NCBI GenBank assembly: GCA_017615595.1
Contig: JAFZZT010000053.1
Coordinates: forward strand, 1 to 49,690
Direction: 5' to 3'
DNA length: 49,690 nucleotides
Origin: Bacteroidales bacterium
Lineage (GTDB): Bacteria; Bacteroidota; Bacteroidia; Bacteroidales; WCHB1-69
The translations under genes were made by a program, and so were the position numbers. Below, piece by piece: positions 2,593 through 16,313 of this stretch (position 1 is its first letter; each line of letters begins with the position of its first letter). The notes beneath the pieces were generated by a model that was given only the letters and a program-made list of their open reading frames with translations, did not search any database and was not told the origin of the DNA.

Positions 2593-3072
2593 ATGAAGCG
2601 AGAAGCGTTCATAGCCAACATTTCATCCGAGCAGGAGCCCTTGCGAAGGTTCCTGCTTGCCCTTTGCGAAGGTGACCGGATGGAGGCAGAGGACATCGCG
2701 CAGGAAGCGATGATCAAGGCTTACCTCTCCTCCGACCGTTTCGTGGAGCGGTGCAAGTTCTCCACCTGGCTGTTCAAGATCGCCTACAACACCTTCCTCG
2801 ACCATAAGCGGTCGGTGAGAAACCACGAGACAGACCTGGAGGCGGCGGGATTCATGGCCGCCACGCAAAGCGCCGACGACGCCTTCATCTACCAAGAGTT
2901 GTATGAAGCCATCGGCACGCTGCCGCTCAAGGAGAAGTCGGCCATCCTCCTGTTCTACGTCAGCGGATACACCGTAAAAGAGATTTCCAAGATCACCAGC
3001 TGCTCTCAACTTGCTGTCAAACAACAGCTTTCAAGAGGGCGCGACAAACTAAGACAATTATTGAAACAATGA
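2593..3072 (+). CDS. ECF-type sigma-70 family RNA polymerase sigma factor
   Basis: 159 residues. Region 2 spans about residues 10-75, with AEDIAQEAMIKAY and FSTWLFKIAYNTFLDHKR (core binding and -10 recognition). Region 4 spans about 103-155, with LPLKEKSAILLFYVSGYTVKEI and a helix-turn-helix ending in the LSRGRDKLRQLL recognition helix. The length is normal for an ECF factor lacking regions 1 and 3. Its last four bases overlap the ATG of the next gene (ATGA), the usual arrangement of a sigma factor and its membrane regulator. The regulon cannot be inferred. Confidence 0.92.
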   Translation: MKREAFIANISSEQEPLRRFLLALCEGDRMEAEDIAQEAMIKAYLSSDRFVERCKFSTWLFKIAYNTFLDHKRSVRNHETDLEAAGFMAATQSADDAFIYQELYEAIGTLPLKEKSAILLFYVSGYTVKEISKITSCSQLAVKQQLSRGRDKLRQLLKQ

Positions 3073-3440
3073 AAGAGAACACGATAGAAGAGATGTTCGC
3101 CCGCTATCAGCCAGACATGGGCGACAATGATAAATATATGGAGGCTCTCTCCAAGAAGTTGGAGGCGGTGGAGTATGTCAAGAAATACAACGAAGAACAG
3201 GCTCGCCGTCACCGGAAGATGCTGTTGGTGGTGTTCGCGGGTGGCGTCATCACCGGTGCCATCGGCATCGTATTGGCCCTGCTGCACCCCTTCTGGACAC
3301 TGCCGCCCATCAACATTCCCACCCCTGTCACGCAAAGCCCTATTCATCTGCCCAACCTGGCCTTCCTGCTATGTCTATGCCTTACCGGTCTCGGCATCAC
3401 GGGACTGGTGGCGCAAAGAATGGCGCTGCAGGAGAAATAA
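3069..3440 (+). CDS. small membrane protein overlapping the sigma gene, candidate anti-sigma factor
   Basis: 123 residues. The N-terminal 48 residues are charged and helical (YMEALSKKLEAVEYVKKYNE, then a basic RRHRKM). Transmembrane helices lie at about 49-70 and 95-115, with a Pro-rich loop PPINIPTPVTQSP between them. The gene overlaps the upstream sigma gene by 4 nt, so translation is probably coupled. It lacks the HxxxCxxC zinc motif of classical anti-sigma domains. Position and topology suggest a membrane anti-sigma or sensor that holds the sigma factor through its N-terminal helix; this is inference. Confidence 0.7.
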   Translation: MKENTIEEMFARYQPDMGDNDKYMEALSKKLEAVEYVKKYNEEQARRHRKMLLVVFAGGVITGAIGIVLALLHPFWTLPPINIPTPVTQSPIHLPNLAFLLCLCLTGLGITGLVAQRMALQEK

Positions 3441-5250: not shown

Positions 5251-5284
5251 AAGGGGCGAAAGTGAAAAACTTTGGCCCCTTTTT
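5251..5284 (+). terminator. Rho-independent terminator after the SulP gene
   Basis: A 13-bp stem (AAGGGGCGAAAGT paired with ACTTTGGCCCCTT, one mismatch) with a 5-nt GAAAA loop runs into TTTTTG. The T tract touches the -7 box of the next gene at 5286. Confidence 0.8.
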
Positions 5285-5285
5285 G

Positions 5286-5293
5286 TATTTTTG
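5286..5293 (+). promoter_or_regulatory. -7 promoter element TAttTTTG for the sigma/WG gene
   Basis: TATTTTTG lies 22 nt before the ATG at 5316 and begins 1 nt after the terminator hairpin's T tract. No well-spaced TTTG element is seen upstream. Confidence 0.7.
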
Positions 5294-5315
5294 CGTCATC
5301 ATAAAAAAAGAGAGC

Positions 5316-6662
5316 ATGCAGGCACAGCGTTTTTGGACGAGGGCATATCAACGCAATATTGGCAAGATGATCGGCGTATGCTACCGCTATGTTGGCAACC
5401 GAGCATTGGCGGAGGACTTGGCGCACGACGCCTTCCTCAAGGCCATTGAGAAATCGGAAAGCTTTCGTCGGCTCGGCAGTTTTGAGGGATGGCTGATGCG
5501 CCTCAACCTGAACAATACCCTCGACTATCTGCGCCGCCAGCCTCAGTTTCAGCCGATAGAGGAGGTCGAAGTGCCAGAGAGTGCCGAGATGGACGACCGT
5601 TGGGATGAGGAAAATCACACGTTACGGGCTGATGACTTTACAGAGGAGGATGTTTTGGAAGCCCTTGGGAAACTACCCGACAAGCATCGCACAGTATTCA
5701 ACCTGTATGTTTTTGAGGATCAAAAGCATACCAAGATTGCCGAGCTTCTCCAGATAGGGGTCAGAAGTTCCAAGCGTTACCTTGCCGAGGCACGTGTGCA
5801 ACTGCAGCATCTTTTAACCGACAAACATCATCACAAAAAATCAAGCATCATGGTCTTACTCTTGTTGATATCGCATCGAAGCCACGCCGTTGACCGGATT
5901 TGTGTGACCAAGTTGAAACATCTGTCCTTGGCACCGGCGAGTCCTTCCCCATTGGGGGCATTGCAGTGGGCTACTGCGCCGAAACCCTCTGCATGGTTAG
6001 CCTTGTCCGCCGCCAAGGCACCTGCCATCGCCACAGGGGTCATCACTACCGCCGTGGCAGGTTCCGTAGCCGTATGGCAAGCCCAGCCTTCGGAGCCGAC
6101 GATCCCCCACAACCCTGGTTTGCCCGTGGATACACTCAGAACGCAAACAATCGAACCGCAACAAGAGTCAGACACCATCTCTGTTGTGGAGACGTTGAGC
6201 ACACCGTCACTTCAAGAGGACGCTTCCAAAGTGTCAGCCCCGTCCATAAGTCTAACTACAGAGCCATCTGCCGAATCATCAACCCCATCATTGTCCGAAG
6301 AGCCACGCACGACCCCGCCATCATCCCATCATAGCCTTACGATATTCTTGCGACACGGCTATTGCGGGTTAGCCGACGAGCAAGGGAATGAGGTCGTGCC
6401 ACCCCTGTTTTCGCACATAGAGCCATTCGACGAATATAGGAGCGGCTGGGCAATGGTGGACCGGTTCGGTTTCAAAGGATTTGTGGACTCCTCTGGAAAG
6501 GAGGTGGTACACCCCCAATATGATGAAATCGGGAAATTCGGTTTCTACCGGGATGGTTGCGCACTGGTGCGGAAGGGCAACTTCTATGGCTTTATCGATC
6601 TGACAGGCAAGGAGGTGGTGCCCGTGATTCACAAAAGGGAAGATTTAATCAATCACCATTAA
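5316..6662 (+). CDS. sigma-70 family factor fused to a membrane helix and C-terminal WG repeats
   Basis: 448 residues from the ATG at 5316; an upstream in-frame start at 5262 is rejected because it lies before the -7 box. Residues 8-75 are sigma region 2 (LAEDLAHDAFLKAIEK, GWLMRLNLNNTLDYLRR). Residues 111-168 are region 4 (ALGKLPDKHRTVFNLYVFE, then a helix-turn-helix). An Ala-rich hydrophobic helix at about 226-255 follows, then a Ser/Thr/Pro-rich linker (257-340) and three WG-type repeats (342-445; YCGLADEQGNEVVPP, FKGFVDSSGKEVVHP, FYGFIDLTGKEVVP). The likely topology is a cytoplasmic sigma domain with a periplasmic WG domain, giving a membrane-tethered sigma factor. The GIN-domain gene starts 12 nt later and is probably cotranscribed. 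Each domain call is firm; the one-protein sensor role is inference. Confidence 0.85.
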   Translation: MQAQRFWTRAYQRNIGKMIGVCYRYVGNRALAEDLAHDAFLKAIEKSESFRRLGSFEGWLMRLNLNNTLDYLRRQPQFQPIEEVEVPESAEMDDRWDEENHTLRADDFTEEDVLEALGKLPDKHRTVFNLYVFEDQKHTKIAELLQIGVRSSKRYLAEARVQLQHLLTDKHHHKKSSIMVLLLLISHRSHAVDRICVTKLKHLSLAPASPSPLGALQWATAPKPSAWLALSAAKAPAIATGVITTAVAGSVAVWQAQPSEPTIPHNPGLPVDTLRTQTIEPQQESDTISVVETLSTPSLQEDASKVSAPSISLTTEPSAESSTPSLSEEPRTTPPSSHHSLTIFLRHGYCGLADEQGNEVVPPLFSHIEPFDEYRSGWAMVDRFGFKGFVDSSGKEVVHPQYDEIGKFGFYRDGCALVRKGNFYGFIDLTGKEVVPVIHKREDLINHH

Positions 6663-6673
6663 AATCCAACATT

Positions 6674-7657
6674 ATGAAAAGAACATTTGTACTATTCGTT
6701 ATGATATTGTCATTCGGTTTGTTGTCTTCGCAGACACGAATAGAGTACGTTTCTCCATCGGTGGTGCCGTCACACGGCAAGACCAGCGATAATACTGTCA
6801 TCAGAGAAATCCTGCTAAAACCCTTCAAGTCGGTGGAAATCAACTATTTCCTCGGTGATGTAGTGATTCGGCAGGGCACTCGGCACGAAGTCACCGTGAC
6901 TGCCGACGACCATGTCATCGACCATGTGCAAGTACTTGTGAAAGACGACAAACTATACATCTGTATGGGGGATGAGAAAATCTCTAACAACAAGGTCAAG
7001 ATTAAGGTGGAGGTTGACGTGCCGCATCTTGAGGAGGTGACCATACAGAATGTTGGCGATGTGACTATTGAAAAACGAGCCGAAGTGAATCTCTCCATTG
7101 TTCTGAACGGCACTGGCGACTGTGTTTTACAATCACAACAAATAGAGAACTCTTTGGAACTTTTCAATCATGGCGTCGGTGATATTGTTGTACCCACTTC
7201 CAGCGTCATCAAAACGGGCTCTCTGCTCATTCACAACTCGGGGGCGGGAGATGTCAGCCTGCATGCCTGTCAGTGTTCAGCCAGTTCTGTGGTGATCAAC
7301 AACACAGGGGTGGGAGATGTGTTTGTGAATATGATGAAGAACGGGGTCGGAGAGCTGGCGTTGCAAAACAAGGCGACAGGAACTCTTAAGGTCCAGAATA
7401 TTAATGCAAAACAACTGGAGGTGAAGAATTTGGGGACGGGCGACGTGGTCCTGAACGGTATTGCAGAATCGATCAGGATTGTTAATGCCGGCACTGGCGA
7501 TGTCTCTGCGCAATACCTAAAGACAACGAAAGCGCACATTACCAATTATGGCACCAGTACTATAAAAGCCAACGTTTCGGACACTGCGTACATCACGAAT
7601 TATTCGGCAGTTGGAAAAGTGGATGTCAGTGGCGGGGCCAAACTGGTGTGGGAGTGA
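6674..7657 (+). CDS. exported GIN-domain (DUF2807) beta-helix protein
   Basis: 327 residues. A signal peptide covers residues 1-20 (MKRTFVLFVMILSFGLLSSQ). From about residue 40 it opens in DUF2807 style (LKPFKSVEINYFLGDVVIRQ). It then has many repeats of about 20 residues, each carrying an N-x-G-x-GDV turn (NVGDVTI, NGTGDCV, NHGVGDIV, NSGAGDVS, NTGVGDVF, NLGTGDVV, NAGTGDVS), which predicts a parallel beta-helix. GIN-domain proteins are often annotated as putative adhesin heads, but function is unproven. It lies 11 nt after the sigma/WG gene in the same direction and ends 2 nt from the convergent DUF5618 gene. Confidence 0.85.
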   Translation: MKRTFVLFVMILSFGLLSSQTRIEYVSPSVVPSHGKTSDNTVIREILLKPFKSVEINYFLGDVVIRQGTRHEVTVTADDHVIDHVQVLVKDDKLYICMGDEKISNNKVKIKVEVDVPHLEEVTIQNVGDVTIEKRAEVNLSIVLNGTGDCVLQSQQIENSLELFNHGVGDIVVPTSSVIKTGSLLIHNSGAGDVSLHACQCSASSVVINNTGVGDVFVNMMKNGVGELALQNKATGTLKVQNINAKQLEVKNLGTGDVVLNGIAESIRIVNAGTGDVSAQYLKTTKAHITNYGTSTIKANVSDTAYITNYSAVGKVDVSGGAKLVWE

Positions 7658-14027: not shown

Positions 14028-16313
14028 ATGCAGAAGCCGCTGGCAGAAATATTACGACCGCACACCTTGGATGCCTACATCGGGCAGGAGCACCTGATGG
14101 GCAAAGGGGCCGTGTTGCGTAATGCCATCGAGCAGCGGAGCATCCAGTCGATGATCTTCTGGGGCCCGCCGGGCGTGGGCAAGACCACCCTGGCCCTGCT
14201 CATCGCCGAGCTCACCGACTCAGACTTCTTCCTGCTCAGCGCCATCAACAGCGGCGTCAAGGACATCCGCGATGTCATCGACAAGGCCAAGAAATCAGAG
14301 AAGCGCGCGCTGCTGTTCATCGATGAAATACACCGTTTCTCCAAGTCGCAGCAGGACTCCCTGCTGGGCGCGGTGGAGCAGGGCGTCATCACGCTCATCG
14401 GCGCCACCACCGAGAACCCCTCCTTCGAGGTCATCTCGCCGTTGCTCTCCCGCTGCCAGGTCTATGTGCTGAAAAGCCTCTCGCGAGAGAACCTGGAGAC
14501 CATCCTGCAGACAGCGGTCGATTATCTGTCTGCCCAGATGAGCTGCAAGATAGCGATTGAAGACACCGAAGCGCTCTTGCGCATCTCCGGCGGTGACGCC
14601 CGCAAGCTGCTCAACGCCATAGAGCTGGTCACCTGGATGACCAAGCCCGTGGACGGGGTCATCCACGTCACCCACCAGCAGGTGGTGCATGTCATCCAGC
14701 AGAACCTGGCCATGTACGACAAGAAAGGGGAGCAACACTATGACATCATCTCGGCGTTCATCAAGTCGTTGCGGGGCAGCGACCCCAACGCGGCGGTCTA
14801 TTGGATGGCGCGGATGCTTGTCGGTGGCGAAGACCCGCTCTTCATCGCCCGCCGGATGGTCATCCTGGCCTCCGAAGACATCGGCAATGCGAACCCCAAC
14901 GCGCTGCTGCTGGCCAACAACTGCTTCCAGGCCGTGAATGTCATCGGCATGCCGGAGGCGCGCATCCCCTTGGCGCAGACGGCCATCTACCTCGCCTCCT
15001 CGCCCAAGAGCAACGCCTCCTATATGGCCATCGAAAACGCCTACGCGCTGGTGAAGCAGACCGGCGACCTGCCCGTGCCACTGCACATCCGCAACGCCCC
15101 CACCAAGCTGATGAAGGAGCTGGGCTATCACAAGAACTACCAGTACGCCCACGACTACGAGCACAACTTCGTCAACCAGGAGTTCCTGCCGGAGCAGATC
15201 AGCGGCACCCAGCTATACGACCCGCAGAACAACCCGCGCGAGAACGAGCTGCGGCGCTATCTGAAACAGTGCTGGAAAGAGAAATACCACTATGTGATCA
15301 CGATCCTGGTGGCGCTGAGTTTTTTTTTTAGCATAAACAAGGCCGAGGCCCAAAACTACCATTTCACCCAGTATTACACGCAACCGACAGCGCTTAACCC
15401 TGCCCTGACGGGGGCCTATGACGGGCTCATCCGGGCCGGGCTCACGCAGCGGACCCAGTGGCTCTCCGTGACGGTGCCCTATCTGACCTTCGGGGCCGAG
15501 GTGGATGGCGCCATCTACCGCAACAACCGGAGACAGACGCTCATCGGGGCAGGTCTGGCCTTCAACGGCGACAAGGCCGGCGACCTCAACTACACCTCGC
15601 TGCAGGCGATGGCCTCCCTCTCGCTGATCCGCTACGTGGGCCACCACAACCGCCACAAGATCGGCATCGGCTTTTACGGCGGCATCCTCAACAACGCCTA
15701 CAACCAGTATGCAGCGCGCCTGGACGAGCAGTTCCACAACGGCTACTACGACCCTGAAGCGCCCATCTACGACATCTTCGACAACACGCGGCAGCTCTTC
15801 TTCGACTGCGGCGTGGGAGCCTTCTGGAGCTTCTCGCCCAACAAGACCGACAACTATCAGGCCGGCATGAGCGTGTCGCACCTCAACCATCCCACCGAGG
15901 TCTTCCAGAACGGATACCTGCAGCTGCCCCTGCGCTGGACTGCCCACGCGCTGGCCCGCATCAGCCTCAGCGACAACCTGGCGCTGGAACCGAGTCTCTA
16001 TATGACGTGGCAGCGCCGGTTCAGCGAATACACCTTCGGCACCAACCTAGAATATTTTCAGAAGAAGAACAGCTACACCACCCTGTTCTCGCTGGGCGGC
16101 GGCATCTTCTACCGCTGGAACGACGCCCTCATCGTGGATGCCTTCTTCGACTGGCAGAACCTGCGTATCGGCGTCAGCTATGACGTCAACGTGTCGCGAT
16201 TCTTCACGGCCACGAGCGGCCGGGGCGCCCTGGAGGTCTCCATCACCTACATCTTCCGCAAGAAACGCATCAACCGCATTGGCAAAGAGCCATGTCCTTA
16301 TGATTTAATGTAA
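14028..16313 (+). CDS. rarA: single frame joining RarA (replication-associated recombination ATPase) to a PorP/SprF-type T9SS membrane protein
   Basis: 761 codons without a stop. Residues 1-422 are a complete RarA/MgsA: Walker A GPPGVGKT at 46-53, Walker B LLFIDE at 95-100, sensor GATTEN at 125-130, and a C-terminus LRRYLKQCWKEKYHY where Bacteroidota RarA proteins normally end. RarA is a AAA+ clamp-loader-like ATPase acting at stalled forks. Residues 423-761 begin with a signal-peptide-like VITILVALSFFFSINKAEAQ and continue as PorP/SprF (NYHFTQYYTQPTALNPALTG, then a barrel). A folded cytosolic RarA ahead of an internal signal peptide should not be exported, so the barrel is probably made from an internal start (GTG 15294). 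A lost stop codon, a real fusion or an assembly indel are the alternatives. Confidence 0.85.
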   Translation: MQKPLAEILRPHTLDAYIGQEHLMGKGAVLRNAIEQRSIQSMIFWGPPGVGKTTLALLIAELTDSDFFLLSAINSGVKDIRDVIDKAKKSEKRALLFIDEIHRFSKSQQDSLLGAVEQGVITLIGATTENPSFEVISPLLSRCQVYVLKSLSRENLETILQTAVDYLSAQMSCKIAIEDTEALLRISGGDARKLLNAIELVTWMTKPVDGVIHVTHQQVVHVIQQNLAMYDKKGEQHYDIISAFIKSLRGSDPNAAVYWMARMLVGGEDPLFIARRMVILASEDIGNANPNALLLANNCFQAVNVIGMPEARIPLAQTAIYLASSPKSNASYMAIENAYALVKQTGDLPVPLHIRNAPTKLMKELGYHKNYQYAHDYEHNFVNQEFLPEQISGTQLYDPQNNPRENELRRYLKQCWKEKYHYVITILVALSFFFSINKAEAQNYHFTQYYTQPTALNPALTGAYDGLIRAGLTQRTQWLSVTVPYLTFGAEVDGAIYRNNRRQTLIGAGLAFNGDKAGDLNYTSLQAMASLSLIRYVGHHNRHKIGIGFYGGILNNAYNQYAARLDEQFHNGYYDPEAPIYDIFDNTRQLFFDCGVGAFWSFSPNKTDNYQAGMSVSHLNHPTEVFQNGYLQLPLRWTAHALARISLSDNLALEPSLYMTWQRRFSEYTFGTNLEYFQKKNSYTTLFSLGGGIFYRWNDALIVDAFFDWQNLRIGVSYDVNVSRFFTATSGRGALEVSITYIFRKKRINRIGKEPCPYDLM
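15294..16313 (+). other. PorP/SprF-type barrel region with possible internal GTG start
   Basis: This is the C-terminal module of the fused frame. If translated from the GTG at 15294 it gives a 339-residue protein. A signal peptide of about 19 residues ending KAEAQ precedes the PorP/SprF opening NYHFTQYYTQPTALNPALTGAY-like segment, and a barrel of typical size ends VSITYIFRKK. PorP/SprF proteins are outer-membrane partners of the type IX secretion system, often paired with type B cargo. It overlaps the next gene by 1 nt (TAATG), and that gene encodes a PD40/OmpA-like protein, the usual companion. A T10 tract at 15320-15329 lies in the signal-peptide codons. Confidence 0.75.
15320..15329 (+). 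repeat. T10 homopolymer inside the internal signal-peptide codons
   Basis: Ten T residues in otherwise GC-rich coding DNA encode the end of Ser plus Phe-Phe-Phe. Loss of one T gives a TAA stop within three codons, and gain of one T gives TAG immediately. Confidence 0.85.

Follow-up and report, generated by a model that had tools for sequence, protein, structure and literature searches.

The 448-residue protein encoded at positions 5316..6662 (+) of the window, the whole 49,690-nucleotide stretch of DNA analysed here, is probably a single-protein transmembrane ECF signalling receptor resembling IutY, with a sigma factor, an anti-sigma-like segment, a membrane helix and a WG-repeat module in one polypeptide. 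The sequences supply its domains, a conserved fusion, a chain of homology to a stand-alone transmembrane protein, a correlation between module and neighbouring gene, and promoter-like sites; from these we infer membrane insertion, anti-sigma activity, docking, proteolysis, promoter use and a signal. For the broader proposal that Bacteroidota at large possess one-piece transmembrane sigma receptors, we see even chances; these would combine a constant sigma/anti-sigma core with an exchangeable periplasmic module that docks an exported neighbour (WG with DUF2807, a DT tail with a DT outer-membrane protein, or a partner in cis).

Translation gave one uninterrupted frame of 448 residues, and together with Pfam it bears out the layout proposed in the sequence-only reading, in which one frame joins the two sigma regions (2 and 4) to three WG repeats by way of an Ala-rich helix and a Ser/Pro/Thr linker; matches within the genus and an alignment agree. 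Sigma-70 region 2 (residues 11-75, 5346..5540; PF04542 Sigma70_r2, E 3.2e-14) and region 4 (residues 111-163, 5646..5804; PF08281 Sigma70_r4_2, E 1.8e-9) both exceed the curated cut-offs, and TIGR02937 was matched above and TIGR02985 below its own cut-off. They are followed by an anti-sigma-like juxtamembrane segment defined by alignment and profile comparisons (residues about 173-228, 5832..5999), a marginal, Ala-rich predicted single transmembrane helix found by hydrophobicity scan (residues 235-254, 6018..6077), a Ser/Pro/Thr-rich linker evident from the sequence and variable in alignment A1 (residues about 257-340, 6084..6335) and three WG repeats predicted to be periplasmic (residues about 345-440, 6348..6635), all on the + strand. 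The WG_beta_rep family (PF14903) was matched in three stretches with 62.7 bits against a cut-off of 25.6 (E 3.2e-17). Neither a FecR domain, whose place WG takes, nor a zinc-finger anti-sigma domain was matched in Pfam up to E 1, and no solved structure resembled the middle segment up to E 5. The structure look-up with the WG part returned SAKe6BE-L3, which we take to be a designed protein, at E 6.2e-6, the other five matches being at 0.83 or worse. The start is placed at the ATG at 5316, because the orthologue starts and the conserved promoter at 5272-5297 agree on it, and a longer GTG start at 5262 is unlikely. A SulP-type transporter gene lies upstream. On the 3' side, a DUF2807 (head GIN) gene, the proposed partner, starts after 11 bp (6674..7657, +; PF10988, E 3e-26), and its N-terminus resembles a signal peptide by eye.

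The fusion is conserved within the genus. Sixty genomes were searched: 36 of the same genus, the window's included, and 24 belonging to the order but to other families. In 25 of the 36 a full-length match without internal stops was found, the other 24 copies being 50-93% identical to the window protein, and one further copy (G015) is interrupted by an N gap; among the matches listed, no full-length match came from the 24 genomes of other families. The frame is thus no chance ORF and the fusion not a stray one, and the earlier claim that sigma factor and sensor-like part form one polypeptide stands across species. In alignment A1, comprising 19 of the full-length same-genus proteins, invariant residues occur in the sigma, middle and WG parts, those of the middle segment being D193, C196, K199, L200, P207, W218 and W227, and the linker is variable. 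Protein extraction from the loci yielded nothing at L003, L024 and L029, and at L026 it yielded an adjoining DUF2807 protein. Compared with the nearest relative, dN/dS was 0.084 for the sigma part, 0.103 for the middle and transmembrane part and 0.185, from only 5 changes, for the WG part; the value of 2.1 for the linker comes from 7 changes and means little. Along window positions 5316-7657, identity to locus L071, the nearest relative, is 0.83-0.93 in the 5' half and climbs to 0.95-1.0 around 6100-6700, with a dS of 0.59 in the sigma part and 0.05 in the WG part, which suggests that the C-terminal module was exchanged by recombination in this pair. A truncated WG-sigma gene in G031 (L060, 1425-1826; 133 aa) retains the sigma-2 part, with a WG-type promoter still 5' of it. 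The window's genome also encodes another WG-repeat protein (L043, 1075-2187), with an N-terminal transmembrane-like segment by eye and no sigma part.

A scan of named genomes with A1 gave 161 confirmed relatives, of which the best 80 were kept and are described by the following class counts. They derive mostly from Bacteroidales MAGs, many of them from ruminants, and also from Salinivirgaceae MAGs and Cytophagales (Spirosoma, Dyadobacter, Larkinella, Emticicia and Runella). The set comprises 23 WG proteins (one broken by Ns), 4 proteins carrying DUF2807 in cis, 8 Cytophagales proteins with a different C-terminus and 45 others, 43 complete and 2 running off the contig. In all 23 WG relatives the next gene encodes DUF2807; one of these neighbours is truncated at the end of its contig and another lies beyond an N gap. 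The four cis-DUF2807 proteins bear this domain on the sigma protein itself, gave no WG match up to E 1 and have no DUF2807 gene downstream; in a midpoint-rooted tree of the sigma region with 93 rows they nest among the WG proteins, at a fork supported by 100/94 that leaves one WG row out. Since DUF2807 follows in 23/23 WG relatives, the WG domain is unlikely to sense alone, and synteny together with the cis fusion makes the DUF2807 protein the best candidate partner. Of the sequence-only reading, which saw the WG domain as a possible sensor, the fusion of a sensor-like part is retained, and sensing by WG alone is judged unlikely.

A comparable pairing was found in 41 of the 43 complete others, in which a DT-strand tail on the sigma protein is accompanied by a next-door exported protein with a DT-strand N-terminus, the exceptions being L118 (446 aa, different C-terminus) and L140 (unfused). 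The DT motif was present in 13 of 264 other ORFs of the same loci and in none of the 23 WG neighbours; DT and tail patterns had been drawn up after the sequences were seen. Tail and neighbour form a possible beta-strand docking pair. Fused DT-tail sigma genes with a DT neighbour lie at loci L098-L112, L114-L117, L119-L136, L139, L142, L148 and L149, and at L181 from position 1489 on; G688, from another order of the class, encodes a DT-tail protein with a DT neighbour.

The relatives also bear on the middle segment. One subgroup is split: in the four loci used, the sigma gene (about 170 aa) stands apart from a gene for a small transmembrane protein with a DT tail, at least one small lipoprotein-like gene lying between the two, and the DT outer-membrane gene comes next. 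A profile of this transmembrane protein, built from 4 sequences, matched the tails of 10 fused DT-tail paralogues with P 99 and E 7.5e-18, and that of the middle segment (A5; 15 WG and cis-DUF2807 sequences) matched the same tails with P 97 and E 1.2e-10; the direct comparison of A5 with the split transmembrane protein was not significant (P 1.4, E 0.037). Because both match the fused DT-tail paralogues, the middle segment and the split transmembrane protein are linked by homology through this intermediate, and residues 173-228 are probably a built-in anti-sigma with a putative inhibitory activity. The sequence-only reading contrasted the protein with classical ECF systems, which need a separate membrane anti-sigma; the covalent link that it saw is upheld, and an anti-sigma is probably not absent, as the homology chain points to a related segment built into the protein. 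Homologues are not consistently split: the WG orthologues are fused, and the sole split subgroup nests inside fused ones in the tree.

A membrane helix had been claimed at residues 226-255. On a DGpred-style scale, the best-scanning segment of the window protein, residues 235-254, has a predicted insertion energy of +2.19, and nothing beyond the sigma part is more hydrophobic. The 23 WG proteins average +2.01 (range +1.2 to +2.6), compared with 3.13 for shuffled tails and 4.75 for the best segment of the sigma part. Means were +1.40 in the 4 cis-DUF2807 proteins, +0.53 in 42 others, +0.24 in the 8 Cytophagales proteins and -0.74 in 2 members of a second WG family. Because the corresponding helices of homologues are clearer, and in view of the cis-DUF2807 relatives, residues 235-254 are likely a membrane helix; the claim gains from these homologues and is weak in the WG subgroup, where the helix is marginal. 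Lysine plus arginine per 25 residues amounts to 1.70 before and 0.30 after the helix in WG proteins, favouring a cytoplasmic N-side, and is reversed in Cytophagales (n=8, 2.12/3.12) and in the second WG family (n=2, 1.00/1.50); the charge rule backs this orientation in only part of the family.

The search for the same domain order in Bacteroidota returned, besides the same-genus copies, a second sigma-WG fusion in another family. In an order-wide scan of 393 genomes from 206 genera, with up to 4 candidates scored per genome, full-length WG matches came from 3 of the 4 same-genus genomes sampled and from neither of the 2 genomes from other genera of the window's family. The second fusion belongs to genus g84, in which 2 of 3 genomes encode a sigma-WG protein (767 and 769 aa), each containing 10 WG stretches; the next gene encodes an esterase in G220 and is similar-looking in G116, and is not DUF2807. 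A phylum-wide scan of 395 genomes at E 1e-34, again with up to 4 candidates scored per genome, matched only the window's genome and G688, which carries the DT tail, not WG. This second family is distant in the sigma-region tree. A single origin of all sigma-WG fusions, with WG and cis-DUF2807 rows held in one clade, was rejected by the AU test (p 0.0033), for which the group was named after the tree was seen, included the four cis-DUF2807 rows and involved long branches. As one clade is rejected, the fusion probably arose twice, the second time independently.

A motif search placed a predicted ECF-type promoter, TTGGCCCCTTTTT..GCGTC, at 5272..5297 (+), which is probably autoregulatory. Within 3 mismatches the window has no other match, and 100 shuffles gave none. 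A promoter of ECF type before the own gene is frequent, though not universal, among ECF (group 4) sigma factors. By eye, 24 upstream regions from the WG and cis-DUF2807 classes share this motif or a close variant, located some 20 bp ahead of the ATG, with the second box altered in the cis-DUF2807 group; the other classes mostly have TG(C/T)(C/A)ACCTTTT..GC(A/G)TC. According to the section cited of PMC9723704, a CGT box at -10 is regarded as characteristic of Flavobacterium ECF promoters. With each tested class left out of training, a promoter model based on seed patterns drawn up after the sequences had been seen ranked the upstream site within the top 3 of its own locus at 70 of 79 loci (26/26 WG/cis, 28/36 same-genus-type, 8/9 Salinivirgaceae-type and 8/8 Cytophagales). 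The seed site is absent from 11 of the 79 upstream regions; L124, L127 and L128, with sites 86-90 bp upstream, were outside the training and inside the test, and L080 and L097 were left out of the test for too little upstream DNA.

The promoter also points to a target. The sole other close site in the window's genome (up to 3 mismatches; control 0) precedes a gene for an 818-aa TonB-receptor-like protein with carboxypeptidase-regulatory-like, Plug and OMP_b-brl_3 matches and no match to an STN-type domain up to E 0.01. Within the genus, 35 WG-type sites occur in 28 of 40 genomes (control 0). Twenty-nine lie just 5' of a WG-sigma start, one of these being the truncated gene of G031, and all 6 remaining sites lie 85-99 bp 5' of the same receptor gene, encoding proteins of 818-823 aa that are 74-79% identical to the receptor of the window's genome. 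The receptor site was thus seen in only 6 of the 28 genomes having any WG-type site; G003 has a WG-sigma gene with only a diverged promoter site. At 2 of the 4 cis-DUF2807 loci (L093 and L095) the gene immediately after the sigma gene encodes a receptor homologue (52-53% identity); at L091 and L092 different genes, with no receptor, come next. The promoter sites and the adjacency at L093 and L095 are two separate signs that tie the sigma group to this receptor family.

From these observations we propose that the sigma-2/sigma-4 part would be held in the cytoplasm by the fused anti-sigma-like segment and the single membrane helix, and that the long linker would carry the WG module into the periplasm, where it would probably meet the exported DUF2807 protein. 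Binding, loss or stress on that protein or its ligand may then trigger release of the sigma part, most likely in the manner of IutY, through periplasmic trimming and cleavage within the membrane. Once free, the sigma factor would transcribe its own operon (sigma-WG and DUF2807) from 5272-5297 and, in the window's species and close relatives, the outer-membrane TonB-receptor-like gene elsewhere in the genome.

One rival reading keeps the IutY-like tethered sigma factor and lets WG itself sense a small ligand or wall component, with DUF2807 as a co-regulated target and not a partner. It is less likely. In its favour, DUF2807 lies behind the predicted autoregulated promoter and is thus an expected target, the second sigma-WG family lacks a DUF2807 gene next door, and WG and DUF2807 show no specific co-evolution (partial r 0.17, with 83 of 2000 permutations as high; sigma/DUF2807 0.26). 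It is opposed by the four relatives inside the WG set that fuse DUF2807, without WG detected and with none downstream, and by the match between module and neighbour in the DT-tail relatives as well. A membrane-anchored protein that functions without proteolysis, as a tethered sigma factor switched by conformation or as a constitutive one with an autoregulatory loop, we regard as unlikely. The sequence reveals no cleavage site, and no M50 match was found in the window's own MAG (92% complete); this absence is weak, however, because an M50 (RseP-family) protease gene is present in 33 of 40 genus genomes (32 above the cut-off), and IutY, the one characterised protein of this layout, is cleaved.

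It is more improbable still that the helix is not inserted and that the protein is soluble with a cytoplasmic WG part, like other ECFs whose C-terminal regulatory extension is soluble. This would fit the insertion energy, which is positive in all 23 WG proteins. However, the helices of homologues are clearer at the same place (+0.53, +0.24 and -0.74 means), few K/R follow the helix in WG proteins (not so in Cytophagales or the second WG family), the domain of the cis-DUF2807 relatives is borne elsewhere on proteins with signal-peptide-like starts, and IutY provides a precedent (in the section cited of PMC5411451). No evidence favoured a frame accident or an assembly fusion of a sigma gene with an adjoining WG gene, and either was rejected as exceedingly improbable: 25 of 36 same-genus genomes share the one frame, and dN/dS is 0.08 for the sigma part and 0.10 for the anti-sigma/transmembrane part.

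Further observations concern the window and the loci of the relatives. At window positions 2593-3440 a second ECF sigma gene overlaps a gene for a small transmembrane-like protein and resembles an ordinary split sigma/anti-sigma pair. One 761-aa frame at 14028-16313 joins an ATPase-like part, presumably of RarA/MgsA type by eye, to an outer-membrane-protein-like part, presumably PorP/SprF-like, as a fusion or through a frame error. The 80 loci L071-L150 (509 kb) contain 51 palindromes of 28 bp (GTAGAGACG-10 bp-CGTCTCTAC), for example at L079 3289 and 3928 and L080 332, 938 and 1097; there are none in shuffles and none in the window. Of these, 38 are inside ORFs of 90 or more aa, 37 of them in one shared frame (VET..SL), and 26 lie in 17 of the 80 fused sigma genes, at the variable linkers of residues 85-100 or 288-353. 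GTAG- and CGTC-tagged palindromes and in-frame palindromes are described for Rickettsia in the section cited of PMC3733652.

The section cited of PMC7406223 gives a class I anti-sigma neighbour for only 6% of Bacteroidetes ECFs. The fused family offers a testable answer for part of those without such a neighbour and could, if true, be one of the other modes sought for them. It supplies a predicted promoter, partner and target gene, and its natural module exchanges hint at which part talks to which.

Among known systems, IutY of Pseudomonas putida (ECF243) is the fused sigma/anti-sigma of a cell-surface signalling system, activated by Prc and then RseP cleavage, according to the sections cited of PMC5411451, PMC8999054 and PMC9249621. 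The window protein resembles it in apparently joining a cytoplasmic ECF sigma factor, one transmembrane helix (here predicted and marginal) and a periplasmic regulatory part in a single polypeptide, in the presence of M50/RseP-family proteases in its genus and in a TonB-receptor-like gene as predicted target. It differs in its periplasmic part, which is not FecR-like but WG (in relatives, DUF2807 or a DT tail), and in its operon partner, which is DUF2807 and not the receptor; the IutY-type receptor has an N-terminal STN-type signalling domain, for which the predicted target receptor gave no match. The relatives of the sigma-WG protein moreover form a large family in Bacteroidota with exchangeable modules. 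ECF48, ECF52 and ECF53 of Actinobacteria (e.g. SCO4117) likewise have a C-terminal anti-sigma-like part, one or more transmembrane helices and an extracellular part, although theirs includes a zinc-finger anti-sigma domain with no counterpart among the matches of the sigma-WG protein, and ECF57 shares a repeat domain in the C-terminal extension, WD40-like there and WG here (sections cited of PMC8999054). As presented in the part cited of PMC3878776, the ECF/membrane anti-sigma/SusC porin systems of Bacteroides are a likeness in envelope signalling of Bacteroidota, with sigma and anti-sigma as separate proteins, and hybrid two-component systems similarly join split parts in one polypeptide, these being a kinase and a DNA-binding regulator. 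Our literature search (sigma with WG, sigma with DUF2807, and fused ECF/anti-sigma in Bacteroidetes) did not find the family described, and some members may already have an ECF group number. Fused sigma/anti-sigma proteins are thus known, while the layout, the module exchange and the promoter and target links predicted here appear to be new within the literature searched.
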